Positions 1 through 28,483 of a DNA stretch of 33,500 bases are shown piece after piece. The stretch's first letter is position 1. Each line of letters starts with the position of its first letter. The translations under genes were made by a program, and so were the position numbers. Source of the stretch: Hellea sp. (GTDB lineage: Bacteria > Pseudomonadota > Alphaproteobacteria > Caulobacterales > Maricaulaceae); contig JAHDDT010000001.1 of the NCBI GenBank assembly GCA_020629195.1, positions 36,312-69,811 on the forward strand. The letters run 5' to 3'. The notes under the pieces are model-generated. The model was given only the letters and a program-made list of their open reading frames with translations. It ran no database searches and was not told the origin of the DNA.

Positions 1-501
1 CTTGATATCACACAACGCCGTCGCAATTTGGTTGGTTCAGCCAGTTGCGGATTATGCGGGCTTGAAAATGTAGAGACTCTTTTTAAAGTTTTGCCTCATG
101 TAGCTGAGTCTCCAATAGAGCTTTCAAATGATGTCATGGATAAAGCGATGGCGCAGCTCAGAAACCGACAGCCCCTCAACGCGCAAACGCATAGCGTCCA
201 CGCTGCGGCTTGGGTCTCGCATACTGGCGAGATTATTATGAGCCGCGAAGATGTAGGGCGGCACAATGCGCTTGATAAACTTTTAGGGGCCTTAGCTCTG
301 AAAGATATGGATGTGACTGAAGGGTTTCTACTTATGTCTAGCCGCTGTTCTTATGAGATTGTTGAGAAAGCGGCGCGGCGCGGCGTTCAGGCCATCTTAT
401 CTATTTCGGGGCCGACAGCATTTGCCATGCGAAAGGCAAAAGAGGCGAATATGAGCCTCTATGCGCGAGCCGAAAATAAAGGCGTAAGAATAAAAGTCTG
501 A
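1..501 (+). CDS. fdhD: Formate dehydrogenase accessory sulfurtransferase FdhD, 5' truncated by window edge
   Basis: The frame is open from base 1, so the N-terminal part (roughly 100 residues by family length) lies outside the window; 166 residues are visible. FdhD passes sulfur from the cysteine desulfurase IscS to the bis-MGD molybdenum cofactor of formate dehydrogenase, in the cytoplasm. The diagnostic SASCGLCG segment, holding the CxxC sulfur-carrier cysteines, is near the left edge. The SREDVGRHNALDKLLG block and the SSRCSYEIVEKAARRG block that follow are also typical of the family. Its presence implies a molybdenum/tungsten formate dehydrogenase elsewhere in the genome, which would suit the formate-producing pathway encoded downstream. 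Family identification is secure; the role in this context is inferred. Confidence 0.95.
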   Translation, partial: LDITQRRRNLVGSASCGLCGLENVETLFKVLPHVAESPIELSNDVMDKAMAQLRNRQPLNAQTHSVHAAAWVSHTGEIIMSREDVGRHNALDKLLGALALKDMDVTEGFLLMSSRCSYEIVEKAARRGVQAILSISGPTAFAMRKAKEANMSLYARAENKGVRIKV

Positions 502-548
502 GTTTTTAAGCTCCAGTTCTTTTTCTGACTTGCCAATTCTGTAAAGCA

Positions 549-558
549 GCCATATGGC
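549..558. promoter_or_regulatory. Perfect 10-bp palindrome upstream of the MFS gene
   Basis: GCCATATGGC is a perfect inverted repeat in the 108-base gap between fdhD and the MFS gene, about 50 bases before the MFS start. It could be an operator half-site pair, but a single short palindrome is weak evidence. The same gap has an AAGGA ribosome binding site at about 596-600. Confidence 0.2.
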
Positions 559-609
559 GAATTGAGACTTAAATGCGCGGCTAATAACCGCCTGTAAGGA
601 TGTGAGACA

Positions 610-1851
610 ATGCGGGCTGTTCTTAGCTCTATTGGGGCGCTGTTAATATCAGCCGCAATCCTGCTCGCGGGCGGAGGTCTGCTCTCGACATTGATTGCCA
701 TCCGCGCAGAGGTCGAAGGCTTCCCGCTTGTTGCCATTGGACTTCTGACATCCGCCTATTTTGTAGGCTTTATCGGCGGGTGCATCGGCACGCCTTATTT
801 GGTCAAGCGGGTAGGGCATGTGAGGGTATTTGCTGCATTATCGGCTTTAACGGCGGCGGCAACGCTCACCCACGTTCTGGTTATAAATGTGCCAACATGG
901 CTTATTTTGCGCGTCATAACAGGCTTCAGCTTTGCGGGGCTCTATATGCTTATTGAGAGCTGGATAAATGAGCAAGCGCCAAATGAGAAACGGGGGCAAG
1001 TCTTAGCCATTTACCGCATGGTTGATTTAGGTGCTGTTACGGCAGGTCAATTTATGCTGACTTTGGCTGATCCCAAAGACTTCATTTTGTTTTCAATCGT
1101 GGCAATTTGTATTTCCATGGCGATATTCCCCATATCTGTTTCGACCTCCAAAGCCCCAGTCGCGGTTTCGCAAACGTCACTTAATTTAAAAAAGCTCATC
1201 AAAACCTCTCCCTTGGCTGTAGCAGGGTGTTTTGCGGTGGGTCTATCTAATGGATCTTTTTGGGGCGTTGCTCCCGTCTTTGTAAAACAGCTTGGCCATC
1301 CAATTATTGTTGTGTCGACTTTTATGAGTCTCGCCATCGCGGCAGGGGCTTTCCTGCAATGGCCAGTTGGGGCTTTGTCGGATAAACTTGGACGGCGTAT
1401 AATGATTATAATTATGTCAGCTTTGAGCGTGGGCGCTGGAATTTTTCTTTGGCAATATGCGCCGTTATCTCAAACCATGTTACTCTTTGGCGGAGCGCTT
1501 TACGGTGCTTTTGCGATGCAGCTCTTTGGGTTGTCTGCTGCCCTTGCAAATGATTATGCAGAGCCGCATGAATTCGTCGCAATTAGTGGCGGCTTATTTT
1601 TAATTTATGGTATTGGGTCTGTTATAGGCCCCTCAATCGCGCCTATTGTCATGTCGCTTTACACGGCCTCAGCTATGTTTGCATTCACGGCTTTTGTTCA
1701 TATGGGTCTGGTGTTTTATGCGCTCTACCGCACGTCGCAGCGCAAACCAGCAGAGGGAGGGGATTACGTTAATGTGGCGCGTCCGCGTTCCATGATGTTG
1801 ATATTGCGCACAGATCCGCGAAACCTGCTTAAGCGAAAGAAAAAGTCATAA
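610..1851 (+). CDS. MFS transporter, YcaD-like
   Basis: 413-residue inner-membrane transporter of the major facilitator superfamily with about twelve hydrophobic segments. Its N-terminal half resembles the E. coli YcaD type: a first helix with LLSTLIAIRAE, then the loop-2 region YLVKRVGHVRVF (the conserved basic G-x-x-x-D/R-R-x-G style loop), and later the repeat-half loop GALSDKLGRRIM at about residues 255-266. The C-terminal 40 residues are polar and basic and probably cytoplasmic. The ATG at 610 follows an AAGGA at suitable distance. The 3' end overlaps the convergent regulator gene by 6 bases. The substrate cannot be read from sequence; next to fdhD and the osmolyte genes, a small organic solute is possible but unproven. 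Confidence 0.85.
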   Translation: MRAVLSSIGALLISAAILLAGGGLLSTLIAIRAEVEGFPLVAIGLLTSAYFVGFIGGCIGTPYLVKRVGHVRVFAALSALTAAATLTHVLVINVPTWLILRVITGFSFAGLYMLIESWINEQAPNEKRGQVLAIYRMVDLGAVTAGQFMLTLADPKDFILFSIVAICISMAIFPISVSTSKAPVAVSQTSLNLKKLIKTSPLAVAGCFAVGLSNGSFWGVAPVFVKQLGHPIIVVSTFMSLAIAAGAFLQWPVGALSDKLGRRIMIIIMSALSVGAGIFLWQYAPLSQTMLLFGGALYGAFAMQLFGLSAALANDYAEPHEFVAISGGLFLIYGIGSVIGPSIAPIVMSLYTASAMFAFTAFVHMGLVFYALYRTSQRKPAEGGDYVNVARPRSMMLILRTDPRNLLKRKKKS

Positions 1852-2847: not shown

Positions 2848-4197
2848 TTACAGGGCATTTTGCAGCAACCTTTCTTCATAAGGGTATGGCGTGAGGTTTT
2901 CATATCCGTCCTGGGTTATGAGGATTTGATTTTCCAGTTTTACACCGTTAGTGCCGCCAACTTTGCCCGTATAGGCTTCCACGCATAGGATCATGCCGGG
3001 TTGTAATTCATCTTCGAAGGCCCCCTCTATGAAGTGATCCTCATAATAAATGCTGGGATATTCATCGCATAATCCCACCCCATGCATTTTGACGCAGTAT
3101 TTTTGAGCTTGATACGCCTCGGGCAAAACATGGCCTTTAAATGTGAGGTCTTTAAATGAGACGCCTGGTTTTAAGAGCTCCGTATTTTCAAGGATATGGT
3201 CATAGGCCATTTGGTAACAGTCTTTTTGTTCCGTTGTACCGTCTCCATCGCCGACAAGCCACGTTCGCGACATGTCACAGCACATACCGTAAAGTCCGAT
3301 AAGGTCTGTATCAAAGGCCAAGAGCTCTCCATCTTTTATGATACGAGGCCCTGCTTCCTGCATCCATGGGTTTGTTCTGGGACCAGAAGAGAGAATGCGC
3401 GTCTCAATCCACTCTCCGCCGCGCGCAATATTTTCATGGTGAAGTACGGCCCAGAGTTCCACTTCGGCGAGTCCGGGTTGCAAAGCTTTATGCATATTCT
3501 TAACGGCTATTCCACATGCGGCAGCGGCGCATTTCATAGCTGTAATCTCGTCTGGGCCTTTAATCAGGCGAGCTTGTTCCATGATTGATTGTCCAGACCT
3601 ATAATTGATGCCGACATCCTGAAAACTTTGAGAAACGGCTACATCCATGCGGTCAATAGCGATACGGCCTTCACAGCCGTGCTGTGTCATGACATCCTTT
3701 ATCTCTTTTGCAAATTTTGACGCTTGAGCAGATTCTTTTGCGCCATGTTCAAAATAGAAAGCGCCTGCACCGCTGCGAACTTCGTTAATGAGTGGAAGGT
3801 GGCGGGTCATGTGCTCGCAATGCGTAAAGTCCCATAATACAATGTGCCCGTCTGCACTGATAAAGGCCGCACGTGCCAGATTATGCAGAGTCCAGACCTG
3901 CATATTCATGGAATCTGTTGCATAGCGAATATTGATGGGGTCGAATAATAATATACCTCCAATATTAGATTTCTGAAGTTCAGCCATAATACGCTCACGG
4001 CGATAAAGTCGCATCTGAGGCAAGTTAGGAAGGGAAAGCCCCATTTCGGCTAATTCAGTCATCGCCCGTAATGTCGGCCCTATTTCGGGAGTGTCAAAAG
4101 ATGCACGGCGCGCCTCAATATCCGCCTGAATTTTAGGCCCAATTTTGCGGTGTATTTGCGGTCTCGCTGTCGTTATAGGCGATTTTTGAGGTCTCAT
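2848..4197 (-). CDS. dddP: DMSP lyase DddP (M24 peptidase fold)
   Basis: Cleaves dimethylsulfoniopropionate to dimethyl sulfide and acrylate; a cytoplasmic metalloenzyme built on the M24 (creatinase/aminopeptidase P) fold. The protein is 448 residues from the ATG at 4197. ATG 4218 and TTG 4224 are alternatives; none has a clear Shine-Dalgarno, and 4197 best fits family length. It reads as DddP rather than a generic M24 peptidase through GGEWIETRILSSGPRTNPW, LLAFDTDLIGLYGMC and YGVKMHGVGLCDE-like segments. Counting from this start, the residues corresponding to the five metal ligands are Asp296, Asp308, His372, Glu407 and Glu422, and the proposed catalytic Asp is Asp378 in GLCDE; all are present. 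It is transcribed divergently from the fhs one-carbon operon and followed by a GbdR-like regulator. Activity is inferred from residue conservation, not shown. Confidence 0.9.
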   Translation of the reverse strand: MRPQKSPITTARPQIHRKIGPKIQADIEARRASFDTPEIGPTLRAMTELAEMGLSLPNLPQMRLYRRERIMAELQKSNIGGILLFDPINIRYATDSMNMQVWTLHNLARAAFISADGHIVLWDFTHCEHMTRHLPLINEVRSGAGAFYFEHGAKESAQASKFAKEIKDVMTQHGCEGRIAIDRMDVAVSQSFQDVGINYRSGQSIMEQARLIKGPDEITAMKCAAAACGIAVKNMHKALQPGLAEVELWAVLHHENIARGGEWIETRILSSGPRTNPWMQEAGPRIIKDGELLAFDTDLIGLYGMCCDMSRTWLVGDGDGTTEQKDCYQMAYDHILENTELLKPGVSFKDLTFKGHVLPEAYQAQKYCVKMHGVGLCDEYPSIYYEDHFIEGAFEDELQPGMILCVEAYTGKVGGTNGVKLENQILITQDGYENLTPYPYEERLLQNAL

Positions 4198-4427
4198 AAC
4201 GTCAATAATACAGTACATTATCAAGATAGCGTATAGCTACACCCTTCAATAAGAGAACCATTCAAATTTATTATTCCAGTCATAAGTGCAGTTGCAATTT
4301 CTGGTGCTAAAGCGCTATGTGAGAAAAATTTAGCTACGTCGCTTTTCGTAAATTATTTGACGTATATTGAAAAGTTATGTGCTATTTTTGCTCTAGTTTT
4401 AAATAAAATTACAATAGGCTTTAAGGC
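4198..4427. promoter_or_regulatory. Divergent promoter region between dddP and the fhs operon
   Basis: This AT-rich 230-base gap, the longest in the window, separates two divergent transcription units. A TTGACG hexamer at 4357-4362 is followed 17 bases later by TGCTAT at 4380-4385, a plausible but weak sigma-70-like pair pointing toward fhs. The heptamer TAGCTAC occurs twice (4234-4240 and 4331-4337). No riboswitch fold or ORF was recognised here. One regulator, such as the GbdR-like protein, could control both sides; this is inference. Confidence 0.4.
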
Positions 4428-6128
4428 ATGACACAGCAGAACCTCCCAGCGCCCGGCGCAGCAGATATCGACATTGCGCGCGCGGCTAAAATGAAGAGCC
4501 TATTACCTTTGGCGGAAGAAAAGCTTGGTATTCCAGCTGAAGCTCTCGTGCCTTACGGCCACTACAAAGCAAAGCTGTCCTTGGATTATATTGATAGCCT
4601 TAAAGATAAGCCCGACGGGAAATTGGTACTTGTGACGGCTGTGACGCCAACCCCCGCTGGTGAGGGAAAGACAACGACATCGGTTGGCCTTAATGATGGC
4701 CTTAACCGCATAGGCGTTAAATCTATGGTATGCCTAAGGGAGCCTTCTTTGGGGCCATGTTTTGGTATGAAGGGCGGGGCTGCTGGAGGTGGGCGTGCGC
4801 AAGTTTTACCGATGGAAGACATTAATCTTCACTTTAACGGGGATTTCCACGCCATAACCTCTGCACATTCTCTGATTTCAGCTATGTTGGATAATCATAT
4901 GCAGTGGGGGAATGAACTGGATATTGACCCGCGCCGAATTACGTGGCGCCGCGTTGTGGATATGAACGACCGTGCACTTCGCCATATCGTCATGGGTCTC
5001 GGCGGCCCGACGCAAGGTATCGTGCGCGAAGGCGGTTTTGATATCACTGTGGCTTCAGAGATCATGGCAATTTTCTGCTTGGCGACGGATCTTAAAGATC
5101 TTCAAAAGCGCATTGGCGATATAATTGTTGCGAAGACGTCAAAAAAGAAGCCTGTCACGGTTCGTGATATCGGCGCGGATGGCGCCGTGACTGTTCTGCT
5201 TAAGGATGCTTTCCAGCCTAATCTTGTGCAATCTATAGAGCATAATATGGCCTTTATTCATGGGGGGCCTTTCGCCAATATCGCACATGGCTGTAATTCT
5301 GTAGTAGCAACGCAAACGGCGCTTAAGATGACTGACGTTGTCGTAACAGAGGCCGGATTTGGAGCGGATTTGGGCGCAGAGAAGTTCCTTGATATTAAGT
5401 GCCGTCAATCGGGTCTTCGTCCTGATGCTGTAGTGCTTGTCTGCACAATCCGCGCTATGAAGATGCAAGGCGGTGTCCCAAAAAATGAGTTAGGGCCACA
5501 AAACATTGAAGCTGTTCGTGAGGGCTGCGTGAATGTTGAACGTCATATCCAAAACCTAAAGAAATTTGGCCTTACGCCTGTGGTGTCTATCAACCACTTC
5601 ATCCATGACACGGATGAGGAGATTGCTGTTGTGAAAGAAATTTGTGATCGTGAAAATGTTCCTATGGTGATAGCGCGTCACTGGGCCGAAGGCGGCGCAG
5701 GGGCGGAAGACTTGGCCAAAGCCGTACAGGCAGAGCTGGCAAAGCCAAAGCCAAGCGTCACCCTTATGTATGAGGATTCGGATAAGCTTGCGGTGAAAGT
5801 CGAGAAGGTAGCGAAAGAAATCTACCGTGCGGAGAATGTTATTATCAGCGCCGCCGCCAAAACAACATTCAGGCAGGTTGAGAAGATGGGATTTGGACAT
5901 TTGCCGATTTGTATTGCCAAAACACAATCTAGCTTTTCAACGGATCCTAAAAAGTTAGGCGCAACATCAGGTCATACTGTTGAAGTCCGCGAAGCGACTT
6001 TAAATGCAGGTGCAGGTTTTGTAGTTGCAATATGCGGAACGATAATGCGTATGCCGGGCTTGCCGCGCCATCCAGCCGCACTAGATATTGGCCTAGATGA
6101 AGACGGGCAAATTGTGGGTCTCGCATAG
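4428..6128 (+). CDS. fhs: Formate--tetrahydrofolate ligase
   Basis: 566 residues, full length for the family. Catalyses formate + ATP + THF to 10-formyl-THF + ADP + Pi, reversibly and in the cytoplasm. The ATP loop [12 protein letters not shown] is at residues 73-84 and the strongly conserved [19 protein letters not shown] follows at about 104-122. The C-terminal [24 protein letters not shown] is also typical. It is the first gene of an eight-gene operon (24 bases to the next gene) whose other members remove and oxidise methyl groups. In that setting it most likely runs toward formate, giving one ATP by substrate-level phosphorylation per methyl group; this direction is inferred. FolD and FchA, needed between methylene-THF and formyl-THF, are not in the window. 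Confidence 0.97.
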
Positions 6129-6152
6129 CGCGGTCTGTGAAGGGAAATTATT

Positions 6153-6842
6153 ATGAGCGATCAAGACGAAGAAATCATTCTCAAAGACTTAGATGATACT
6201 GAGCTTGTCCAACAAATGATGGACGATCTTTATGACGGGATGATACCAGAGGTCACAGAAGGGACAAAAATTCTGCTCGACAGAGGGTGGGATGCCAATA
6301 TGGTTCTTAATGACGCCTTGGTCGAGGGTATGCGTATCGTTGGCGTTGATTTCAGAGATGGTATTTTATTTGTGCCCGAAGTCCTGCAAAGCGCTAATGC
6401 GATGAAGGGTGGTATGAATTTACTCCGTCCTATCCTTGCGGCGAGTGAAAATAATTCCAGCGTCGGAAAATATGTTATCGGAACGGTTAAAGGCGACATT
6501 CATGATATCGGTAAAAATCTTGTTGGCATGATGCTCGAAGGGGCTGGATTCGAAGTTATTGATTTGGGAATAAACACACCCGTTGAAGAATATCTCGCCG
6601 CTATTGAGGAGCATGAGCCTAATATCTTAGGTATGTCGGCGCTGCTCACAACAACTATGCCTTATATGGGTGTTGTGATTGAGGAATTGGATAAGCGAGG
6701 TATCCTCAAAGAACTGCCTGTGATGGTGGGCGGCGCCCCGCTAAACCAAGAATTTGCAGATGCGATTAACGCCCATACCTATGGTCGTGACGCGGCTATG
6801 AGTGCGGAGCTTGCAAAAGCAATTATGGGTAAAAATAGATAG
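6153..6842 (+). CDS. Corrinoid (methylcobamide) carrier protein, MtgC/MttC-like
   Basis: 229 residues. An N-terminal four-helix cap domain (about 15-95) is followed by a Rossmann-like cobalamin-binding domain (about 105-228). The base-off/His-on motif DxHxxG is complete (Asp115, His117, Gly120 in KGDIHDIGKN), with the accompanying Ser162-x-Leu164 and the VGGAPLN glycine pair at 193-194. Members of this family shuttle a methyl group on cobalt between a substrate methyltransferase and a THF or CoM methyltransferase. Here the partners are the MttB-family protein and the pterin methyltransferase of the same operon. The first 30 residues are very acidic (11 Asp/Glu, one Lys), longer and more charged than the fold needs. 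The cobalamin supply must come from elsewhere, as no corrin genes are in the window. Confidence 0.93.
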   Translation: MSDQDEEIILKDLDDTELVQQMMDDLYDGMIPEVTEGTKILLDRGWDANMVLNDALVEGMRIVGVDFRDGILFVPEVLQSANAMKGGMNLLRPILAASENNSSVGKYVIGTVKGDIHDIGKNLVGMMLEGAGFEVIDLGINTPVEEYLAAIEEHEPNILGMSALLTTTMPYMGVVIEELDKRGILKELPVMVGGAPLNQEFADAINAHTYGRDAAMSAELAKAIMGKNR

Positions 6843-6848
6843 GCCGTT

Positions 6849-7484
6849 ATGAGAGTGTCTTCTCAACATAAGACTCTCATTTTGGCGTGCGGTGCATTGG
6901 CTAAGGAACTTGTCTATTTGCTCGGGCAAGCGAAACATGAGGCTGAACTGAAATGTTTGCCCGCCAGTTATCACAATCACCCAAACAAAATTGTCCCAGG
7001 ACTAAAGGCCATTTTAGACGAATGCGCCGCTGAATATGACACGATACTCATTGGCTATGGTGATTGCGGGACGGGCGGCGGCTTGGACAGATTACTTGAA
7101 GACTACCCGAATGCGACTCGTTTACCGGGAACGCATTGCTATGGCTTTTATGCGGGACTAGCCCAGTTTGATGATATGATGGAAGAAGAGTTAGGAACCT
7201 TTTTCTTGACCGATTACCTTGTTCGGCATTTTGACACCTTAATCATCAAAGGTATGGGCATAGACCGCTATCCTGATCTGAAAGAGACATATTTTGAGCA
7301 TTATAAAAAACTGACTTACTTGGCGCAAACCGAAGATGAAGCTTTGCAAATTCAAGCTCAAGCCGCTGCCCGTAAACTAGGTCTAACTTATCACTATCAT
7401 TTTACAGGCTATGGCGAAGTTGAAGCGGCTATTACATCATTCGGTTTGGACACTAATTATCAAGAAAGCATACGTCATGTATAA
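6849..7484 (+). CDS. DUF1638 domain protein of the corrinoid methyltransferase operon
   Basis: 211 residues; recognised as DUF1638 from its signature IGYGDCGTGGGLDRLL near residues 68-83 and GTHCYGFYAGL near 95-105. The cysteines in YGDCG and THCYG are the obvious candidates for a metal site. No signal peptide or membrane segment. The biochemical function of this family is not known to me; it recurs beside MttB-like methyltransferases and corrinoid proteins, so a role in cobamide handling, reactivation or folate binding is possible. It starts 6 bases after the corrinoid gene and overlaps the metV-like gene by 8 bases, so translation of these genes is probably coupled. Confidence 0.85.
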   Translation: MRVSSQHKTLILACGALAKELVYLLGQAKHEAELKCLPASYHNHPNKIVPGLKAILDECAAEYDTILIGYGDCGTGGGLDRLLEDYPNATRLPGTHCYGFYAGLAQFDDMMEEELGTFFLTDYLVRHFDTLIIKGMGIDRYPDLKETYFEHYKKLTYLAQTEDEALQIQAQAAARKLGLTYHYHFTGYGEVEAAITSFGLDTNYQESIRHV

Positions 7485-7935
7485 AGTGCGCCTTTGGTCT
7501 GTTCGCCGTTCGCGTTTTATGGAGGGGCTCTATAATACTGTGAACCCAGCTATTATTGCTGTGTTAAAGGGCATCACAAAAGTCTTTGGTAAGAAGTTGG
7601 ATAAACCCATCACAGCGGCAGAAGCTGGCTTGAAAGGCTTTCTGTTTGATTGCCAGATGTGCGGAAATTGCGCTTTGTCCAAAACAGGAATGAGCTGCCC
7701 AATGAATTGCCCTAAGACTATTCGTAATGGGCCTTGCGGCGGCGTTCGTCCGAATGGCATGTGCGAAGTCAAGCCTGAGATGCGCTGTGTTTGGGTCGCG
7801 GCTTGGGATGGTGCCTCGCGGATGAAAGATGGGGATGCAATTAAATCCATTGATTTCGCAGTTGATCATCGCGAAAAAGGGACATCCACTTGGCTTAAAT
7901 TAGCACGTGAAGAGCTCGCTGAGGATGCCAAATGA
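7477..7935 (+). CDS. metV: MetV-like Cys-rich protein (methylene-THF reductase C-terminal domain family)
   Basis: 152 residues from the ATG at 7477, which overlaps the DUF1638 stop; an upstream in-frame ATG at 7411 would add 22 residues read from inside the previous gene and is less likely. Eight cysteines sit between residues 59 and 104 (59, 62, 65, 74, 78, 87, 96, 104), in CQMCGNC, CPMNCPK, PCGG and MRCVW contexts, indicating a zinc and/or iron-sulfur site. The family is the small MetV subunit that pairs with MetF in acetogens and helps electrons reach or leave the flavin. Here it overlaps metF by 4 bases. In an apparent aerobe running the reaction oxidatively it could change the electron acceptor from NAD(P) to another carrier; that is inference. 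Confidence 0.82.
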   Translation: MYKVRLWSVRRSRFMEGLYNTVNPAIIAVLKGITKVFGKKLDKPITAAEAGLKGFLFDCQMCGNCALSKTGMSCPMNCPKTIRNGPCGGVRPNGMCEVKPEMRCVWVAAWDGASRMKDGDAIKSIDFAVDHREKGTSTWLKLAREELAEDAK

Positions 7936-8948
7936 TAGAAGAAATTCAAGATGCAGAAACGCTTGGGACTAATCCAGGCGATCCGCTTCCGCAGCTTCCG
8001 GGTCACGTGTCCCATGGTCGTTTTGAGCGCGTTTTAAGAGCAGGACATTTCGCCGTTACAACAGAAATTGCTCCGCCGGACTCGGCTGATCCCGATGAAG
8101 TTCTCACGCGGGCCTCATTGTTTGATGGGTATGTTGACGCCATTAATGCGACGGATGGTTCGGGTGCGCATTGCCATATGTCGAGCTTAGCCGTTTGCGC
8201 CATCCTTACGCGAGCGGGTTACTCACCGATTTTACAAATCTCTTGCCGCGACAGAAATAGAATTGCCATTCAGGGTGATACATTAGGCGCGGCGGCTTTG
8301 GGCGTCTGTAATGCTTTGTGTTTGTCTGGTGACGATGTTGGCGCTGGGGATCATCCCGAAGCGAAACCCGTTTTCGATTTTGACAGTGTGTCGCTGACGC
8401 GGACGCTAAGAGTATTGCGAGATGAGTCGCGTTTTCTGAGTGGACGTAAGCTTGATCTCGCGCCTAAATTATTTATCGGCTCATCCATCAATCCTTTTGT
8501 GCCGCCTATTGCGAATAGAGCCGATCAACTCGCGAAGAAGATTGAAGCGGGGGCTGAATATATCCAGTCACAATATTGCTTTGATATGGATGTCCTCAAA
8601 GACTTCATGAGCAAAGCCGTGGACATGGGGCTTACGGAAAAAGCTTATATCCTCATTGGCGTGGGTGTTTTGCCGTCAGCTAGAACTGCAAAATGGATGC
8701 GCGCAAATGTACCAGGCGTGCATATTCCCGATAACATCATTAAACGTCTTGAGGGCGCCGATAAGCCTTTGCGAGAAGGCCGGAATATCTGCGTCGAAAT
8801 AATGCAACAGCTTAAAGAAACAGCAGGCGTCAGCGGCGTTCATGTTATGGCTTACCGACAGGAAAAATGGGTCAAAGATGTCGTAAAACGTTCAGGCGTT
8901 TTAGACGGACGTGTACCGTGGTCGCCTGAAACTGAAGAATTGAATTAG
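7932..8948 (+). CDS. metF: Methylenetetrahydrofolate reductase
   Basis: 338 residues, flavin-dependent TIM-barrel enzyme interconverting methylene-THF and methyl-THF. Family features are the start of the barrel VTTEIAPPDSADPDEVL (about 38-54, with the catalytic-type Glu), LQISCRDRNRIAIQGDTLGA near 101-120, and the NALCLSGDD segment near 127-135. It is longer than E. coli MetF (296 residues) and starts with about 35 polar residues. The 4-base overlap with metV and its place before a methyl-THF:corrinoid methyltransferase suggest a dedicated catabolic copy that oxidises methyl-THF rather than supplying methionine synthesis. Another biosynthetic metF may exist elsewhere. Confidence 0.93.
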   Translation: MIEEIQDAETLGTNPGDPLPQLPGHVSHGRFERVLRAGHFAVTTEIAPPDSADPDEVLTRASLFDGYVDAINATDGSGAHCHMSSLAVCAILTRAGYSPILQISCRDRNRIAIQGDTLGAAALGVCNALCLSGDDVGAGDHPEAKPVFDFDSVSLTRTLRVLRDESRFLSGRKLDLAPKLFIGSSINPFVPPIANRADQLAKKIEAGAEYIQSQYCFDMDVLKDFMSKAVDMGLTEKAYILIGVGVLPSARTAKWMRANVPGVHIPDNIIKRLEGADKPLREGRNICVEIMQQLKETAGVSGVHVMAYRQEKWVKDVVKRSGVLDGRVPWSPETEELN

Positions 8949-8957
8949 GATTATAAA

Positions 8958-9863
8958 ATGGCAAGAACGATATTAGCGTCAGCGACCAAGGAACATGTCA
9001 TTGGGTTTGACCAACCTTTCACCATGATTGGAGAACGCATAAATCCAACGGGACGCAAGCTTTTTTCCAAAGAGCTGAAAGAGTTTAATTATTGGCGCGT
9101 GAAGAAAGAGGCCCTCGCGCAAGTTGAGGCTGGAGCTCAAATTCTCGACGTCAATGTTGGCGTCCCTTTGGCTGATGAACCGCTGATTATGTCAGAAGTT
9201 ATCCCGCTTATTCAAAGCCTAACAGATGTTCCGCTGTGTATCGATAGCTCTGTGATGGACGCTTTGGAAGCTGGCCTCAAAGTGTACAAAGGACGCCCGC
9301 TTCTTAACTCTACAACGGCTGAAGAGGAAGTTATGGAACGCATCCTGCCGCTTGTCGCAAAATATGACTGCGCCGTTGTCGCGATTTCAAATGATGATAC
9401 TGGGATTTCAGAGGACCCTGATGTTCGCTTCGAAGTCGCTAAACGTATCGTCAACCGCGCGGCGGATTACGGCATAAAAGCTGAAGATGTCGTCGTTGAC
9501 CCCTTAGTTATGCCCATTGGCGCAGTGAATAGCGCCGGGACGGACGTGTTCAAACTTGTGGGACGCCTTCGCTCTGAGCTCGGTGTGAATACAACATGCG
9601 GTGCGTCCAATGTGGCCTTTGGCTTACCAGAGCGCCATGCCATTAATAATGCGTTTTTGCCTATGCTCGCTGCAACAGGCATGACATCCGCAATCGTAAA
9701 CCCCCTTCATGAAGGCCTTGTTCCAGCGGTGAGAGCGGCTGATGTTCTTAATGGTGTTGACCCAAGCTGCACGAATTGGATTAAGCATTACCGCCCCGCA
9801 CCTGCTGCAGGTGAGGGTGAGGGCGGACGCCGTGGTAGAGGAGGTCGTCGTCGCCGCGGCTAA
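8958..9863 (+). CDS. Methyl-THF:corrinoid protein methyltransferase (MtgA-like, pterin-binding domain)
   Basis: 301 residues. A DHPS-like TIM barrel (about 20-265) carries the pterin-site motifs GERINPTG at 25-32, ILDVNVG near 62-68, CIDSS near 94-98, LLNSTT near 115-120 and GASNVAFGLP at 215-224, whose Asn218 matches the folate-contacting Asn of this family. It would transfer the methyl group from the cobamide of the corrinoid protein to THF. The C-terminus is unusual: residues 286-301 form a Gly/Arg/Glu tail with seven Arg in the last eleven residues. The DNA for this tail overlaps the start of the next gene by about 32 bases. The gene begins 9 bases after metF. Confidence 0.9.
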   Translation: MARTILASATKEHVIGFDQPFTMIGERINPTGRKLFSKELKEFNYWRVKKEALAQVEAGAQILDVNVGVPLADEPLIMSEVIPLIQSLTDVPLCIDSSVMDALEAGLKVYKGRPLLNSTTAEEEVMERILPLVAKYDCAVVAISNDDTGISEDPDVRFEVAKRIVNRAADYGIKAEDVVVDPLVMPIGAVNSAGTDVFKLVGRLRSELGVNTTCGASNVAFGLPERHAINNAFLPMLAATGMTSAIVNPLHEGLVPAVRAADVLNGVDPSCTNWIKHYRPAPAAGEGEGGRRGRGGRRRRG

Positions 9864-10269
9864 GACATATACGGGCAAATGCCTTTGCGGAGAGGTTTCC
9901 TTTAGCGCTAAAGGGCTGTCGGATATTTGGTATTGTCATTGTCAGCAATGCCAACATTTGACGGGTCTCTATATCGCAGCGGCTGGCGTGAAGCGGGATA
10001 ATTTGACCATTGAAGGCCATGTGAATTGGCTCCCTATTTCCGAGGGGTCTAAATCCGGGCATTGCGCCTCTTGTGGAAGTTATATGTTCTGGGACGAAGC
10101 GGTTCGCGATACCGTAAGTGTTTTAGCGGGAAGCCTTGATGATACTGAGGGCTTAACGGTCAAAGGTCACATCTTTGTAAAAGATAAAGGGCCTTATTAC
10201 GAAATTACGGACGGCTTGCCGCAATTTGAGGGGTTTCCGCCCCAAGGCACGCGCGGGGAAACATTATAA
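9832..10269 (+). CDS. GFA-family zinc protein (glutathione-dependent formaldehyde-activating enzyme/CENP-V fold)
   Basis: About 145 residues. Zinc-binding cysteines appear in the order expected for the fold: KCLCGEVSF, then CHCQQCQHLTG, then GHCASCGSYMFWD. The start is uncertain. No ATG lies near the domain; GTG at 9832 is the last in-frame start candidate before it (GTG 9811 and 9817 are alternatives), and an earlier ATG at 9742 would read deep into the previous gene. GTG 9832 gives a 32-base overlap with the methyltransferase. The family is named for a proposed formaldehyde-glutathione adduct step, but most members lack proven activity. In this operon, capturing formaldehyde that escapes from methyl oxidation or sarcosine oxidase is an attractive inference. 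Confidence 0.82.
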   Translation: MVEEVVVAAAKTYTGKCLCGEVSFSAKGLSDIWYCHCQQCQHLTGLYIAAAGVKRDNLTIEGHVNWLPISEGSKSGHCASCGSYMFWDEAVRDTVSVLAGSLDDTEGLTVKGHIFVKDKGPYYEITDGLPQFEGFPPQGTRGETL

Positions 10270-10308
10270 TCAGCGCTGACAAGAAACGCGCTCATTGGGA
10301 GGAAAGAT

Positions 10309-11844
10309 ATGGCTAGACGTGCTAGATCAGGGGGCCGCGCAGGCCGCGCCGCTGCAAGAGGGGCTGAGGCACCGCCTCGCGAGCCGTATATTAAACGCAA
10401 TATTCCAACTTATTCTGTCCTTAACGATACAGACCTAGCGCAGCTTGAGCATAATGCGGATACGCTCCTCGAAGAGGTCGGGCTTGAAATACAAGAAGAT
10501 CCTGAGTCCATTGATTACTTCGTCAAAGCCGGGGCTAAAGCTGATGGCGATCGCGTGCGCTTTCCAAGAGGCATGTGCCGCGAAATTGTCCAAGCGACAG
10601 CACCCAAAGAGTTCACTCAATTTGCCCGCAACCCTGCGAATAATGTTCAGATCGGCGGCAATAATACGGTTCTCGTCCCGGCTTATGGTCCGCCCTTTGT
10701 CTATTCAAAAGAAGGTGGCCGTCGTTACGCCAATATCGAGGATTTTCGTAATTTTGTAAAACTCGCTTACATGTCGCCTAATTTGCATCATAGCGGTGGA
10801 ACCGTTTGTGAGCCTGTCGATTTGCCTGTTAATAAACGTCATTTTGATATGAATTACAGCCATATCAAATATTCAGACAAAGCTTTTATGGGATCCGTAA
10901 CTCAGCCGGAACGTGCACTCGATACGGTCGATATGGCGAAGATTGTTTTTGGCGATGACTTCGTTGAAGAGAATTGCGTTTTGGTCAATCTCATCAATGC
11001 CAACTCTCCCATGACGTGGGACCGCGTGATGTTGGGGTCATTAAAAAATTATGCCCGCCATGGTCAGTGCGCAATGCCAAGTCCATTTGTTGTCTCGGGC
11101 GCTATGTCGCCTGTGACGGCTGCGGGTGTCGCTGCGCAAAGTCTAGCCGAAGGCTTGGCAGGAATGGCGTTGACGCAGCTTGTCCGCCCCGGGGCTCCTG
11201 TGATTTATGGAAACTTTGTGACATCTATGTCTATGCAGACGGGAGCGCCGACATTTGGGACACCTGAAGCATCGCTAATTATTAATATGAGCGCGGCTTT
11301 GGCACGGCGTTTAGGTGTGCCTTTCCGGTCTGCGGGCGGTTTCAATGCGTCTAAAATACCTGATGCGCAGGCGGGATATGAAGCTGCTAATTCCTTGCAA
11401 ACGGGACTTTTGGCAGGTGTGAACTTTATGCTGCATACTGCAGGTTGGCTTGAGGGCGGTTTGGCCATGGGCTATGAGAAATTCATTATGGATGCAGACC
11501 AAGCGGGTATGATGGCGAAATTTGCCAAAGGCGTAGATATGTCAGCCAATGGTCAAGCCATGGACGCGATTGCTGAAGTCGGGCCGGGACAGCATTTCTT
11601 GGGCTGTGAGCATACGCAGAAGAATTTCAAAACGGCGTTTTATCAGTCCAATGTGTCCGACAATAGTAGCTTTGAGCAATGGGTCGAAGACGGAAGCTTG
11701 TCAGCAGAAGATCGTGCAGAGAAAGTCTACCAGACGATGCTCAATGAATATGTCGCGCCAGAGCTTGATGCGGATATTGATGCGCGTTTGCTGAAATATA
11801 TGGCTGACCGTAAGGCCAGCTTCCCCGATAGCAATATCAGCTAA
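10309..11844 (+). CDS. MttB-family methyltransferase without pyrrolysine, probable glycine betaine:corrinoid methyltransferase (MtgB-type)
   Basis: 511 residues, TIM-barrel member of the trimethylamine methyltransferase (MttB) superfamily. Family-like stretches include PEDxVQATAPKEFTQFARNP-style text near 85-109, the long glycine-rich barrel core from about 250 to 390 (SGAMSPVTAAGVAAQSLAEG and QTGAPTFGTPEASL), and a conserved C-terminal QHFLGCEHTQ near 428-437. The frame has no in-frame UAG, so this is not a pyrrolysine TMA enzyme. Non-pyrrolysine members include MtgB, which demethylates glycine betaine to dimethylglycine. Glycine betaine is favoured here by the GbdR-like regulator, tmpAB and soxBDAG, but DMSP, proline betaine or carnitine cannot be excluded. 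The first 30 residues are Arg-rich (8 Arg plus one Lys). The stop overlaps convergent soxG by 8 bases. Confidence 0.87.
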   Translation: MARRARSGGRAGRAAARGAEAPPREPYIKRNIPTYSVLNDTDLAQLEHNADTLLEEVGLEIQEDPESIDYFVKAGAKADGDRVRFPRGMCREIVQATAPKEFTQFARNPANNVQIGGNNTVLVPAYGPPFVYSKEGGRRYANIEDFRNFVKLAYMSPNLHHSGGTVCEPVDLPVNKRHFDMNYSHIKYSDKAFMGSVTQPERALDTVDMAKIVFGDDFVEENCVLVNLINANSPMTWDRVMLGSLKNYARHGQCAMPSPFVVSGAMSPVTAAGVAAQSLAEGLAGMALTQLVRPGAPVIYGNFVTSMSMQTGAPTFGTPEASLIINMSAALARRLGVPFRSAGGFNASKIPDAQAGYEAANSLQTGLLAGVNFMLHTAGWLEGGLAMGYEKFIMDADQAGMMAKFAKGVDMSANGQAMDAIAEVGPGQHFLGCEHTQKNFKTAFYQSNVSDNSSFEQWVEDGSLSAEDRAEKVYQTMLNEYVAPELDADIDARLLKYMADRKASFPDSNIS

Positions 11845-12406
11845 GCACGTTGTCTGCGGTATGAATCAGAGCGTCTAAAAATGACCTCGCGGAACTCCGC
11901 GGGGTCAAAAGCTGAATTTCGGTTTCGCTATATTTTATGACAATCACAGCGATATGATGAGCTGATGTACGGGTTGCAAAGCCTTCAGGTGCTTGCCGTA
12001 AATTCAGCGGAATAAAGCGCTCAAGCACATCATATAGAGCGGCGTTTTTGGAGGTGTCGCTTTTTACATTAATTGACGCCCAGCCATCACTTTGCAGCGT
12101 TGCATAAGCACATGCGCCCATCTTCTTGGCGATGTCTTTATCGGCATTTATATTCTCGCCCTCGAGTAAAATTAAATATTGGTCTGGAGAAGACCACATG
12201 GCAAAGCCACCTTTTACGGCAATGATCTGTGAGGGCTCAGGCGCAGCTTTGCCAAATGTCTTTTTAAAGGCGGGCTTAAAAGCGCTCTCTTCATCGCGTG
12301 CGATAGCCAAAGAGATAAGCTCTCCAGTATAATGTTCTTCAACCGTTAAGTCAGGCCAGTGCTTTGAGAAGCTCTCTAAGGGCAGGGTAGGTGATAATTT
12401 AGACAC
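11837..12406 (-). CDS. soxG: Sarcosine oxidase gamma subunit
   Basis: 189 residues from a GTG at 12406, preceded by AGGGAG at a good distance; a TTG at 12430 is the alternative start. SoxG is the small GcvT-like/DUF1989-type subunit of heterotetrameric sarcosine oxidase, packing against the alpha subunit. The visible landmarks are weak by nature for this rapidly evolving subunit: GWASINVKSD, YDVLERFIPLNLR and ATRTSAHHIAVIVIK resemble the family pattern of folate-domain remnants. The start overlaps the soxA stop by 8 bases, and the gene order B-D-A-G is the standard one. Identification rests on sequence plus position. Confidence 0.88.
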   Translation of the reverse strand: MSKLSPTLPLESFSKHWPDLTVEEHYTGELISLAIARDEESAFKPAFKKTFGKAAPEPSQIIAVKGGFAMWSSPDQYLILLEGENINADKDIAKKMGACAYATLQSDGWASINVKSDTSKNAALYDVLERFIPLNLRQAPEGFATRTSAHHIAVIVIKYSETEIQLLTPRSSARSFLDALIHTADNVLS

Positions 12407-15227
12407 GCAAACGCTCTCCCTTTGGATCAAAGAAATGCGGACTTACGACTGTCACGTCCACATGGCTATTCCCCATAAGATGGCTGGCTTGAATAACTTC
12501 CCCCAGACGATTTTGTCCATTTTTGAGAAAACCCAATCCGATGTAGGTTTCCAGCATAGGTGACCAAGCGACGGAGCTCATATAGCCGTGATCTGTTTCT
12601 GGTGATGGGGTTTCACCTTTGGGGATGAAATGCGCTCCATTTGTGAGCTTGTCCTGAGAGCTCACCGGAATAAAGCCGACCATTTGTAAAGAATCTTCAG
12701 CGATTAAACCTTCGCGCTGAGATAAAACCTTACCGATGCAATCTTTCTTTTTTGATACGAAACCGCCTAATCCTAAGGCTTGAGCCGTTGTCGTTCCGTT
12801 TAACTCATTACCGGCGGCATGACCTTTTTCAATACGCATGACGCCAAGCGCTTCTGTTCCGTAGAGAACTGCATCAAACGCTTCGCCTTTCTGCATCATT
12901 TCGCGAATAAGCGCGTCACCATAACGGGCAGGCACAGAAATCTCATAGGCGAGTTCACCTGAAAAAGAGAGGCGGAAGAGACGCGCCCGCGCGCCCCCGC
13001 ATATTGTAAGCTCGCCGCAAGCCATATAGGGGAAAGCTTCGTTTGAAATATCAAATTCTGGATCGACAATTTTTTCCAAAAGTTTGCGCGCATTAGGGCC
13101 AGCGACGGAGAATTGTGCCCATTGATCTGTCGTCGAAATTAGATGCACATCCATATCAGGATAGAGGCATTGCCTTACAAATTCTAAGTGCCTGAAAACA
13201 GGTCCTGCCTTTGCCGTTGTCGTCGTCGTCACAAAATGGGTTTCTGAGAGGCGTGCCGTCGTGCCATCATCCATTGCTATTCCGTCCTCGCGCAACATCA
13301 ACCCATAACGGCACTTACCGACTTTGAGAGTTGAGAACGTGTTGACATAAACCTTATTGAGAAACTTACCCGCATCGCGGCCTTGCACATCTATCTTGCC
13401 TAGGGTCGTAACATCACAAATACCAACAGAGCTGCGCGTCATGAGAACTTCACGATCAACACTATCGCGCCATCCTTTTTCACCTGAACGTGCGAGCCAT
13501 TGCGACCGTTTCCAATAGCCTGTCTCGATAAAAGTCGCGCCATTTTCCGCGGCATATTTATGGGAGGGCGTCAGCCGCGTCGGTTTGAAGTGTTGTCCGC
13601 GATGCGTCCCTGCAAAAGCTCCAATGGGAACAGGGGAATAGGGCGGACGAAAAATTGTGGTTCCCGTTTCAGGAATGCTTTGCCCTGTGGTATCGGCTAA
13701 TACGGCCAATCCGACCACATTAGAGGTTCTGCCTTGGTCGGTCGCCATACCTAATGTTGTGTAACGTTTAACATGCTCTACGGATGAGAAACCCTCTTGG
13801 TGCGCGAGGGTTATGTCTTTGGCTGTGACATCATTTTGGAAATCGACCCAAGCCCGCTTTTTACCTTTGACATGCCAAAAGGCTGAAACATTAATCGGCG
13901 CATCTTCTGTTTGCGGCAGTGACGAGGGTTTCGCGCCGAGCTTTTCAGTGACATCATTAGCGTCCTTAAAGGCCGCGTGAGTTGAGAACTGACCATTGGC
14001 AGCCCCAATAACAGACATATCAGAAGGAAGCGTTTTGGGGTCTGGCACGAAACACCTTAGTGTCTCGTCCCATTTCGGGCGTGCTCGCTTATGACAGGTC
14101 AAATGAACATTAGGATTCCAGCCTCCGGATACAGCTAGATGGTTGGCAGCTATCTTTTCACCTGTGTTGAGTGTGAGAGAACGCACCCCCTTACGGCCAC
14201 CGACATCAGTGACATAGCTGCCGTTGCGCGTGTCAAAAATATGCGCGGCATCTGTCTGCAATCCGTCATCATTATTTGTCAGAAGAGCTGTATTTTCTAA
14301 ATCAATGTCGAAGCGGTTTTTGTAACTCCGAACAGCACTTGCGAGCATGACGCCAGGGCGGTCATTATTGGCGAAGGCGATGGGCCGTTCTGTTGCTCCC
14401 GCTGCTAAAATGGATGATTTGGCATAGATGCGCCACAGGATATGACGAGGCTTTGATGACCCTATTTCATCTGTTGTAGTTTCAAGGCCGCCATAGATGC
14501 CGTGATCATAAACGCCATAAATAGAAGTGCGCGACATTAACCGCACATTGGGTAAGCTTTCTAGCGTTTGAATGGTTTCATTTACCCAATTAAGCGCGGG
14601 AGCTAAATTTATCTCATAATCTTCAGATAATAAGCGCCCACCCATTCTAAAGTCATCATCAGCGAGGATAATATTATGACCTGCAAGGCCAAGATTTAAA
14701 GCTGTTTGCAATCCTGCGGGGCCTGCGCCGATGATAAGAGTGTCACAATGTAAAAACCCCTTATCATAACTATCTGGATCAGCGGCTTTAGAGAGTGTTC
14801 CAAGCCCAGCCGCGCGGCGAATGACAGGTTCGTAAAGCTTTTCCCAAAAAGCTTTGGGCCACATAAATGTTTTGTAGTAAAATCCTGCTGCCAGAAATGG
14901 ATGCATGAAGTCATTTATAGCAAGTACATCAAAATTAAGCGGCCCCATGTGATTTTGGCTTTTGGCATTTAAGCCATCAAATAATTTAATTGTCGTTGCG
15001 CGGCGATTGGGCTCGCAGGTTCCCGCGCCGTGAATTTCAACAAGCGCATTTGGCTCTTCACTGCCTACGCCCATAATCCCGCGGGGACGGTGATATTTGA
15101 AGCTCCGTCCAACAACGCGAACCTTATTCCTCAATAGGGCAGAGGCCAGCGTGTCGCCTTCATACCCTTGATAGGCTTTGCCGTTAAAGGTGAAGCTTAA
15201 GACCTGTGTATTATCGATGAGGCTCAT
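12399..15227 (-). CDS. soxA: Sarcosine oxidase alpha subunit
   Basis: 942 residues. SoxA carries NAD+ and half of the THF site of heterotetrameric sarcosine oxidase, which converts sarcosine + THF + O2 to glycine + methylene-THF + H2O2. The N-terminal 2Fe-2S-ferredoxin-like domain (no cluster in known members) has FTFNGKAYQGYEGDTLASALL near 12-32 and GRSFKYHRPRGIMG. A Rossmann domain follows with LIIGAGPAGLQTALNLG near 164-180, then a second pyridine-nucleotide segment (ILAAGATERPIAF). From about residue 570 comes a GcvT/aminomethyltransferase-type domain (VGICDVTTLGKIDVQGRDAGKFLN and GELAYEISVP). It overlaps soxD by 4 bases. The GcvT domain might be mistaken for DmdA but is fused in the normal SoxA architecture. 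Confidence 0.95.
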   Translation of the reverse strand: MSLIDNTQVLSFTFNGKAYQGYEGDTLASALLRNKVRVVGRSFKYHRPRGIMGVGSEEPNALVEIHGAGTCEPNRRATTIKLFDGLNAKSQNHMGPLNFDVLAINDFMHPFLAAGFYYKTFMWPKAFWEKLYEPVIRRAAGLGTLSKAADPDSYDKGFLHCDTLIIGAGPAGLQTALNLGLAGHNIILADDDFRMGGRLLSEDYEINLAPALNWVNETIQTLESLPNVRLMSRTSIYGVYDHGIYGGLETTTDEIGSSKPRHILWRIYAKSSILAAGATERPIAFANNDRPGVMLASAVRSYKNRFDIDLENTALLTNNDDGLQTDAAHIFDTRNGSYVTDVGGRKGVRSLTLNTGEKIAANHLAVSGGWNPNVHLTCHKRARPKWDETLRCFVPDPKTLPSDMSVIGAANGQFSTHAAFKDANDVTEKLGAKPSSLPQTEDAPINVSAFWHVKGKKRAWVDFQNDVTAKDITLAHQEGFSSVEHVKRYTTLGMATDQGRTSNVVGLAVLADTTGQSIPETGTTIFRPPYSPVPIGAFAGTHRGQHFKPTRLTPSHKYAAENGATFIETGYWKRSQWLARSGEKGWRDSVDREVLMTRSSVGICDVTTLGKIDVQGRDAGKFLNKVYVNTFSTLKVGKCRYGLMLREDGIAMDDGTTARLSETHFVTTTTTAKAGPVFRHLEFVRQCLYPDMDVHLISTTDQWAQFSVAGPNARKLLEKIVDPEFDISNEAFPYMACGELTICGGARARLFRLSFSGELAYEISVPARYGDALIREMMQKGEAFDAVLYGTEALGVMRIEKGHAAGNELNGTTTAQALGLGGFVSKKKDCIGKVLSQREGLIAEDSLQMVGFIPVSSQDKLTNGAHFIPKGETPSPETDHGYMSSVAWSPMLETYIGLGFLKNGQNRLGEVIQASHLMGNSHVDVTVVSPHFFDPKGERLRV

Positions 15228-15502
15228 TTTTGAGACCTCGCAACATCACGCGCCAGTTCAACTTTTGTAATATCATGGGTCAGCGTGTTGCGGGTAACGA
15301 CGAGCCAAGATCTATCGCCTTGCTCATGATACCAAAGCTCTCTGTGTTGACCTACGGGATTATCCCGTAAATATTGATAGCGGTGGAAATCCTCGGCTGC
15401 CGTTTCTGATTTAGGGTTCGGACGGTTCATGAGCGACGCATCGCCCAGATAAACAAATTCAGAGGCGTCACGTGGGCCAAGAAGAGGGTGGTGAATAATC
15501 AT
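15224..15502 (-). CDS. soxD: Sarcosine oxidase delta subunit lacking the zinc cysteines
   Basis: 92 residues. The family pattern GPRDASEFVYLGDASL, then YQYLRDNPVGQHRELWYH and WLVVTRNTLTHDI identifies SoxD. In characterised enzymes this subunit holds a structural zinc through two cysteines of an N-terminal CPxCG motif plus His and Cys near residues 59-63. Here the protein has no cysteine at all: the N-terminal motif reads HHPLLG, His59 remains, and position 63 is Asp. Either the zinc is lost or it is held by His4/His5, His59 and Asp63. The start overlaps the soxB stop (TAATG), and the end overlaps soxA by 4 bases. Confidence 0.9.
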   Translation of the reverse strand: MIIHHPLLGPRDASEFVYLGDASLMNRPNPKSETAAEDFHRYQYLRDNPVGQHRELWYHEQGDRSWLVVTRNTLTHDITKVELARDVARSQK

Positions 15503-24564: not shown

Positions 24565-24640
24565 AAGGTAAAGCTCGCGCAGGTCGTGACATCCTATACA
24601 TAACTCCAAAAACGCTAATATTCTATAATTAGAAAGTTTA

Positions 24641-24663
24641 AAGACCCATGCCACGAAGGTCTT
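24641..24663. promoter_or_regulatory. Inverted repeat AAGACC/GGTCTT between divergent tmpA and aminotransferase genes
   Basis: Six-base arms AAGACC (24641-24646) and GGTCTT (24658-24663) enclose an 11-base loop in the 130-base divergent gap 24565-24694. A competing pair AAAGAC (24640-24645) and GTCTTT (24666-24671) overlaps it. It may be an operator or an RNA hairpin before the aminotransferase start; support is only the symmetry. Confidence 0.25.
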
Positions 24664-28474: not shown

Positions 28475-28483
28475 AACTGTCTC

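Follow-up and report, generated by a model that had tools for sequence, protein, structure and literature searches.

In a stretch of 33,500 nucleotides (the window) from a metagenome-assembled genome (MAG) of Hellea (Caulobacterales), positions 36312-69811 of contig 4, we identified an eight-gene operon on the plus strand (4428-11844). It most likely encodes a B12-dependent module of the aerobic MtgBCD kind for glycine-betaine demethylation and methyl oxidation. What we infer here from the genes are the substrate, the direction, the electron acceptor and the reactions in this host. The type of system is already known. In the text of PMC12478193, Mausz et al. (2025) describe aerobic MtgBCD-dependent glycine-betaine demethylation in marine Proteobacteria, together with DUF1638, RamA and an extra metF, and also a split methionine synthase. 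The assignment is supported because all parts of that system except MtgE are present: MtgB, MtgC, MtgD, DUF1638, a RamA-like gene and an extra methylene-tetrahydrofolate reductase (MTHFR). The feature that we did not find described is the occurrence of MetV/MetF in aerobes.

The operon starts with fhs, encoding formate-tetrahydrofolate (THF) ligase (4428-6128; PF01268, 857.8 bits; NF010030, 880.1 bits, cut-off 652). It is followed by mtgC (6153-6842) for a corrinoid carrier with cap domain (PF02607, 51.3 bits) and B12-binding domain (PF02310, 91.1 bits), which has a DxHxxG motif at residue 115. The best NCBIfam model for this protein is MtgC_2 (196 bits, cut-off 370), and all NCBIfam MtgC models score below cut-off. 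The third gene encodes a DUF1638 protein (6849-7484; PF07796, 96.2 bits), a predicted corrinoid-reactivation partner by comparison with passages of PMC5764234 and PMC12478193. metV, for the Cys-rich Fe-S subunit of MTHFR (PF12225, DUF5981, 89.8 bits), has a mechanical open reading frame (ORF) from 7411 but probably spans 7477-7935, since the conserved N-terminus begins at 7477. It lies directly upstream of metF and overlaps it by 4 bases. metF (7932-8948; PF02219, 101.1 bits) encodes a MetVF-type reductase which is presumed to run as methyl-THF oxidase, and mtgD (8958-9863) a methyl-THF:corrinoid methyltransferase (PF00809 Pterin_bind, 102.8 bits; NF005719, 350.9 bits, cut-off 259). The GFA-fold protein (9742-10269; PF04828, 66.6 bits) perhaps handles formaldehyde. 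Its mechanical ORF would share 122 bases with mtgD, and the true start therefore probably lies later, inside this frame. The last gene, mtgB (10309-11844; PF06253 MTTB, 723.6 bits), encodes an MttB-family methyltransferase of 511 amino acids. Apart from the GFA frame, the genes are spaced by -8 to +39 bases. All identities rest on Pfam matches above curated cut-offs, which together with the NCBIfam matches bear out the gene order and names given in a preliminary description of this DNA.

That description had also called the MttB homologue non-pyrrolysine, and this is confirmed. The gene has no in-frame stop, and its product carries Phe at the column of pyrrolysine 334 of the reference 7xcl, where the glycine-betaine methyltransferase MtgB of Desulfitobacterium hafniense (2qne) has Leu; at the Tyr364 column both have His. 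A pyrrolysine-containing trimethylamine methyltransferase is ruled out by the Phe and by the score against TIGR02369 (255.7, cut-off 525). MtgB of the window is 45.2% identical to 2qne and 60.6% to 4yyc. The D. hafniense MtgABC system (2qne/9yce) likewise combines a non-pyrrolysine MttB-family enzyme with a corrinoid carrier and a THF methyltransferase; its host is anaerobic according to passages of PMC12478193.

In the proposed pathway, MtgB would load Co(I) of MtgC with a methyl group taken from glycine betaine, which becomes dimethylglycine, and MtgD would pass the methyl group on to THF. MetV/MetF would then oxidize methyl-THF to methylene-THF, a dehydrogenase/cyclohydrolase would lead to formyl-THF, and Fhs would release formate with ATP. 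No gene for a methylene-THF dehydrogenase/cyclohydrolase was found within the window. Spent cobalamin would be re-reduced by the DUF1638 protein and a RamA-like corrinoid activase, whose gene is located on another contig of this genome (RACo C-terminal domain at G000:C77). SoxBDAG would remove the last methyl group by converting sarcosine to glycine. In reverse mode, MtgD and MtgC with a separate MtgE would form methionine and replace MetH. The oxidative direction and glycine betaine as methyl donor, both proposed earlier, hold as the best reading. The preliminary description had missed the methionine role replacing MetH, the regulator gene and the corrinoid activase, which is encoded near mtgB in 45 of 80 related loci.

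These loci are the best 80 of 306 relatives from an MttB protein search of genome contigs. Genes of the window were matched by BLAST (at least 40% of the query aligned, E ≤ 1e-10). Many of the loci end at contig ends, and 40 have at least 9 kb on either side of mtgB. mtgC was detected in 59 of the 80 loci, mtgD in 52, the DUF1638 gene in 46, metV and metF in 42 each, the GFA gene in 29, fhs in 27, the gene for a GbdR-like regulator in 25, and O-acetylhomoserine sulfhydrylase-like and DddP-like genes in 8 and 5, respectively. The 40 loci with full flanks contain mtgC in 35 cases, mtgD in 33, the DUF1638 gene, the RamA-like gene, metV and metF in 29 each, and fhs in 19. Of the 80 loci, 35 have a six-gene core (mtgB, mtgC, mtgD, DUF1638, metV, metF). 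The RamA-like gene accompanies this core in 33 loci and fhs does so in 16, and both fhs and the GFA gene are added to it in 12. The last number, lowered by contig ends, corresponds to all eight gene types, and the arrangement is therefore more than chance. The fhs and mtgC matches share a strand in 14 loci, where 15-64 bases separate the end of fhs from the mtgC match downstream. Among the carriers of the core are Hellea, Robiginitomaculum, Arenicella, Woeseiaceae, Pseudomonas and Azoarcus. Plasmids of Paracoccus (two) and Sinorhizobium meliloti (one) carry it together with the RamA-like gene. The closest named loci belong to Hellea. In H. balneolensis DSM 19091, presumably an aerobe, MttB is 98% identical and the gene order agrees all the way from the MFS gene to the sulfhydrylase gene. 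The Hellea-type MttB sequences group with the gammaproteobacterium Arenicella (support 100/100), which suggests transfer between classes.

In addition, we searched 61 genomes: the Hellea MAG itself, 9 others of the genus, 27 of the family and 24 of the order. Of these, 11 carry MttB: 7 of the 10 in the genus, 4 of the 27 in the family and none of the 24 beyond. MetV was found in 8 genomes, the RamA-like domain in 13 and Fhs over cut-off in 28, the latter in 10 of the 11 genomes with MttB and 18 of the 50 without. The conservation check that had been proposed thus gave a recurrent core among the MttB loci but a patchy distribution among the genomes. The heme-copper oxidase gene COX1 is present in 9 of the 10 genomes of the genus, including the one studied here, in agreement with the apparently aerobic marine alphaproteobacterium assumed before.

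The distribution of MetH connects the operon to methionine synthesis. The MetH reactivation domain PF02965 was identified in 49 of the 61 genomes. It is present in 2 of the 13 genomes with a RamA-like gene (G031 and G035 have both) and in 47 of the 48 without (G029 has neither). It is absent from the Hellea MAG and from the nearly complete genomes G001, G003 and G006. Because the MetH domain is mostly lost where the RamA-like gene is present, this pattern fits the model in the text of PMC12478193, which gives MtgC and MtgD two roles, one in the demethylation of glycine betaine and one in a split methionine synthase. In Ruegeria pomeroyi, the need for mtgC and mtgD in growth on glycine betaine and in methionine supply was addressed with mutants (passages of PMC12478193). 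A precedent for the split synthase is Phaeobacter inhibens, where B12-binding, pterin-binding, DUF1638 and RamA-like (DUF4445) proteins replace MetH (PMC5764234); unlike the operon studied here, the passages of that paper on P. inhibens mention no MttB or MetV. The word 'MetV' also has 0 occurrences in the searched text of a paper on the P. inhibens split methionine synthase (PMC12366255).

MetV and MetF of the window type always occur together in the 42 loci where they were found, and neither is ever alone. Among 387 alphaproteobacterial genomes, 28 have MetV matches (27 over cut-off) and 85 have MttB. MttB is found in 25 of the 27 genomes with clear MetV, the exceptions being G112 and G166; the sub-threshold G316 is also without MttB. 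Since 60 of the 85 MttB genomes have no MetV, it is not required. Of 14 control genomes, two gave a MetV match, those of Methanosarcina acetivorans and Corynebacterium glutamicum, and one of these two matches exceeds the cut-off. A second MTHFR match is present in all 8 MetV genomes among the 61 (in G003 only as a fragment of 82 positions at a contig end), and a dedicated catabolic role of MetV/MetF is therefore favoured. In MetV, C84, C87, C96, C100, C109, C118 and C126 are invariant in 26 sequences while C81 varies, and the motif NGPCGG is present; the protein thus carries predicted ligands for two [4Fe-4S] clusters. Its structure model is of low confidence (mean pLDDT, the predicted local distance difference test score, 64.7; below 50 in the Cys-rich part).

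MetFV types were described, in a study of the Clostridium ljungdahlii MTHFR from 2021, as occurring only in strict anaerobes (legend of Figure 4) or mainly in anaerobic bacteria (text of PMC8515935). According to passages of the same paper, the C. ljungdahlii enzyme does not use NAD(P)H, its cofactor content is consistent with a single flavin on MetF and a pair of [4Fe-4S] clusters on MetV, and the methylene-/methyl-THF couple lies at -200 mV. The Hellea proteins share with this MetVF (2S) the NGPCGG motif, the conserved Cys residues and the position of metV upstream of metF, and there is no Rnf, Hdr or Nuo partner gene among the eight genes of the operon. Unlike C. ljungdahlii, the Hellea host has a heme-copper oxidase, and the oxidative direction is presumed (comparison with passages of PMC8515935). 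The reverse MTHFR reaction was observed in vitro for one enzyme with FAD or rubredoxin and, slowly, for the A. woodii enzyme with NAD+ (passages of PMC8760232). A strictly anaerobic host was not found for the MetVF type here: COX1 is present in the Hellea MAG, and the genes also occur in Pseudomonas, Paracoccus and Sinorhizobium. These three hosts of MetV-MttB loci we take to be aerobes. Strict anaerobiosis is a trait of hosts and not of the MetVF enzyme. A gene for electron transfer flavoprotein (ETF)-quinone oxidoreductase near MttB in Azoarcus KH32C is a single hint to the electron acceptor in aerobes.

At two loci of Hellea MAGs, one protein of 306 and 301 residues, respectively, replaces metV-metF between DUF1638 and mtgD (L042, 5758-6678; L043, 5879-6784). 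The protein of L042 matches MTHFR with only 33.7 bits and is a divergent single-subunit MTHFR-like protein. Matches to this protein were obtained in 11 of the 80 loci, never alongside metV. Three genomes of the genus with MttB and without MetV (G001, G002, G005) show only weak MTHFR matches (33, 29 and 19 bits), and the divergent MTHFR may therefore serve both directions there. We tentatively consider it possible that aerobic proteobacteria operate an oxygen-tolerant MetV/MetF backwards, so that it serves MtgBCD as a dedicated methyl-THF dehydrogenase; the Fe-S clusters of MetV would deliver electrons to a non-NAD+ acceptor, and the pair could be exchanged in place for a divergent single-subunit MTHFR. 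The electrons could enter an ETF/quinone route or go to the ferredoxin-like domain that the corrinoid activase has. In the latter case, methyl oxidation would itself contribute to maintaining reduced cobalamin. If true, an enzyme type considered strictly anaerobic would have a new function and a new range of hosts.

In the literature searched, no description of the in-place exchange was found, and none of MetV in aerobic MtgBCD clusters; Figure 4 or the supplement of PMC12478193 may name metV otherwise. The main text of that paper contains zero occurrences of 'MetV', 'Fhs' and 'formate'. Judged by titles and the starts of abstracts, none of the papers retrieved for MetV plus MetF and aerobic hosts deals with aerobic methyl oxidation. 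The literature search also gave no paper on DUF5981 and none joining Hellea with glycine betaine. The Hellea system shares with the marine MtgBCD(E) system of R. pomeroyi the components MtgB, MtgC, MtgD, DUF1638, RamA-like activase and extra MTHFR, the loss of MetH, marine proteobacterial hosts and the clustering with later demethylation genes. Unlike R. pomeroyi, in which the genes are scattered, the Hellea operon includes MetV, Fhs and GFA (both comparisons with passages of PMC12478193).

We put the probability that glycine betaine is the substrate at about four in five. It is pointed to by a GbdR-like regulator, by SoxBDAG and by a BCCT transporter in a relative. The regulator, a GATase1-AraC protein and probable glycine-betaine sensor, is encoded upstream of the operon on the opposite strand (1846-2805). 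Its score of 351.5 bits is below the equivalog cut-off of 480 of NCBIfam GbdR, yet this is by far the best model (next FtrA, 151.8), and we call it GbdR-like, not GbdR. The sox genes lie on the minus strand, convergent with the operon: soxB (15502-16752; TIGR01373, 663.7 bits, cut-off 529.45), soxD (15224-15502; PF04267, 101.7 bits), soxA (12399-15227; TIGR01372, 1205.1 bits, cut-off 1164) and a soxG-like gene (11837-12430), so called only for its position beside soxA, as Pfam gives no match to it. Divergent from fhs is a gene for a DddP-like dimethylsulfoniopropionate (DMSP) lyase (2848-4224, minus strand; NCBIfam DddP 546.8 bits, cut-off 600; PDB 4rzy, 462 bits). Of the neighbours soxBDAG and dddP named previously, soxBDA are therefore established by family models, whereas soxG and dddP are not. 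In L042 a BCCT transporter gene is located near mtgB (family model 449.7 bits, cut-off 407.55; best model glycine-betaine uptake, 473.9 bits, cut-off 650). In Azoarcus KH32C, MttB lies near betA, betB, folD and a gene for a choline-binding ABC protein, and in S. meliloti bmt and a betaine/proline ABC gene are near the cluster. The genetic data on mtgC and mtgD of R. pomeroyi likewise speak for glycine betaine (passages of PMC12478193).

A different methyl donor, such as DMSP, proline betaine, carnitine or another quaternary amine, whose methyl group the operon would oxidize instead, appears unlikely, although MttB-family enzymes have diverse substrates (passages of PMC12478193) and both the DddP-like gene and a gene similar to TmpA/gamma-butyrobetaine dioxygenase are in the window. 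A midpoint-rooted tree of 36 family members has long branches and leaves the substrate unsettled; of the reference branches named for the phylogenetic check proposed earlier, it covers MtgB (2qne). MtgB 2qne is sister to 33 sequences, operon-linked ones and plasmid paralogues alike, and the pyrrolysine MttB and the long sequence L095_mtgB_b are outside this group. Identity to 2qne is 42.1-47.4% in 25 sequences (window, four plasmid sequences and 20 genome loci), 35.5-42.9% in seven plasmid paralogues and 28.0% in one further paralogue. This is a weak and overlapping difference. Against another donor stand also the GbdR-like regulator, Sox, and the BCCT, choline and betaine genes nearby in relatives. 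In L042, a dmdA gene (326-1435, minus strand; 571.6 bits, cut-off 410) lies close upstream of the fhs-mtg operon, and L043 has an 85% identical homologue. The product of DmdA would also be methyl-THF. Thus, in L042 two methyl-THF sources lie side by side.

It is quite unlikely that the operon is mainly anabolic, with Fhs activating formate, MetV/MetF forming methyl-THF, MtgD/MtgC/MtgE making methionine and MtgB as a minor side entry. This would agree with the missing MetH domain where the activase is present and with an O-acetylhomoserine sulfhydrylase-like gene close by (16876-18165, plus strand; TIGR01326, 570.8 bits, cut-off 495.1), which could supply homocysteine. Against it argue the other MTHFR match in every MetV genome of the 61, the location of MtgB and of the GbdR-like regulator within or next to the operon, and R. 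pomeroyi, where the extra metF2 is the most differentially synthesised protein on N-osmolytes (passages of PMC12478193). A fragment of an anaerobic acetogenic or methylotrophic Wood-Ljungdahl pathway, used at low oxygen, is highly improbable. MetV, MetF, Fhs and the corrinoid methyltransferases are acetogen genes, and MetFV was reported from strict anaerobes (passages of PMC8515935), so that the term 'acetogen-style' of the preliminary description is apt for MetV/MetF and Fhs. It does not extend to the carbonyl branch: CdhC of CO dehydrogenase/acetyl-CoA synthase (PF03598) was found in 0 of the 61 genomes, with two methanogens as positive controls, and acetogenesis was rejected. COX1 in the genus, the adjoining O2-using sarcosine oxidase and the cluster in Pseudomonas, Paracoccus and Sinorhizobium also speak against such a fragment.

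Several observations weigh against aerobic MtgBCD-type demethylation of glycine betaine as set out above. The genome assembly (2.18 Mb, 144 contigs) is 76.5% complete. The matches of the GbdR-like regulator and of MtgC are under the NCBIfam cut-offs, and the MttB tree singles out no substrate, glycine betaine included. MetV is missing in 3 of the 11 MttB genomes among the 61, and metV is not found near mtgB in 11 of the 40 full-flank loci. Members of the homocysteine-methyltransferase (S-methyltransferase) family occur in 60 of the 61 genomes and none could be pinned down as MtgE; MetE was outside the search. DMSP, too, is a likely methyl source in this genus, as the DddP-like gene and the DmdA matches of two Hellea MAGs show.

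Some further features of the operon and its relatives were observed. In the DUF1638 protein, C14, H42, C73, H96 and C97 are invariant (alignments of 30 and 28 sequences), a set that resembles a metal site. Its predicted fold is good (pLDDT 87.6); the fold search gave no confident relative (best Foldseek E 0.0071). The best structural Z is 8.4, to the lac repressor core, and numerous other alpha/beta folds score within 1 of it. We derive no function from this predicted fold. MtgD and the RamA-like activase of L031 both end in Arg-rich tails, Arg/Gly-rich in MtgD. Other MttB paralogues occur at plasmid loci of Rhodobacterales and rhizobia (L151-L154, L156; L155 is unannotated). They are accompanied by betaine-type ABC transporters (L152, L156), flavin oxidoreductases (L151, L153, L156) and mandelate-racemase-family genes (L153, L154), and no corrinoid carrier or THF methyltransferase is annotated within 6 kb. 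They are possible demethylases of other substrates using a carrier encoded elsewhere.

A gene pair for a TmpA-like Fe(II)/2-oxoglutarate dioxygenase and an HD-domain diiron-oxygenase-like protein is located at 22861-24654 (minus strand) in the window and at 11529-13242 in L042. The dioxygenase scores 337.6 bits (cut-off 400) and matches PDB TmpA with 207 bits. The pair was matched in 10 of the 80 loci, up to 10 kb from mtgB, in Alpha- and Gammaproteobacteria, and is close to mtgB and the BCCT transporter in L042-L044. Outside Hellea and its kin, the dioxygenase match is just 26-29% identical and the HD match 43-53%. In the HD protein the pattern H...HD...H...H...D is kept in 17 of 17 sequences (some of them duplicates of one genome) and the YxxE loop of PhnZ/TmpB is absent; it may therefore cleave a different trimethylammonium compound and feed glycine betaine.

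Elsewhere in the window, genes for a tryptophan 2,3-dioxygenase, pyridoxal phosphate and ThiF-family proteins and a kynureninase-like class V aminotransferase (26798-30495) form a probable tryptophan/kynurenine catabolism cluster. Searches of the window with Rfam and for tRNAs gave no match. Terminator-like sites were not in excess (7, shuffle mean 8.5). Promoter-like sites numbered 21 compared to 10.2 in shuffles (sd 3.2), 17 of them on the minus strand and nearly all inside genes; one site (4297-4270, minus strand) falls in the gap before the DddP-like gene. No conclusion was taken from these patterns.

Taken together, the locus shows the MtgBCD system in Hellea and related Robiginitomaculaceae, where one compact operon covers the line from methyl group to formate except for the methylene-THF dehydrogenase step. 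Three points are worth following: MetV/MetF in aerobes, the exchange of this pair for another protein in the same place, and the TmpA-like/HD oxygenase pair that recurs among the loci. The MetV/MetF type, so far assigned to strict anaerobes, is indicated to be common beside MttB in aerobic Proteobacteria, and the locus makes the electron acceptor for aerobic methyl-THF oxidation directly testable in a cultured strain.

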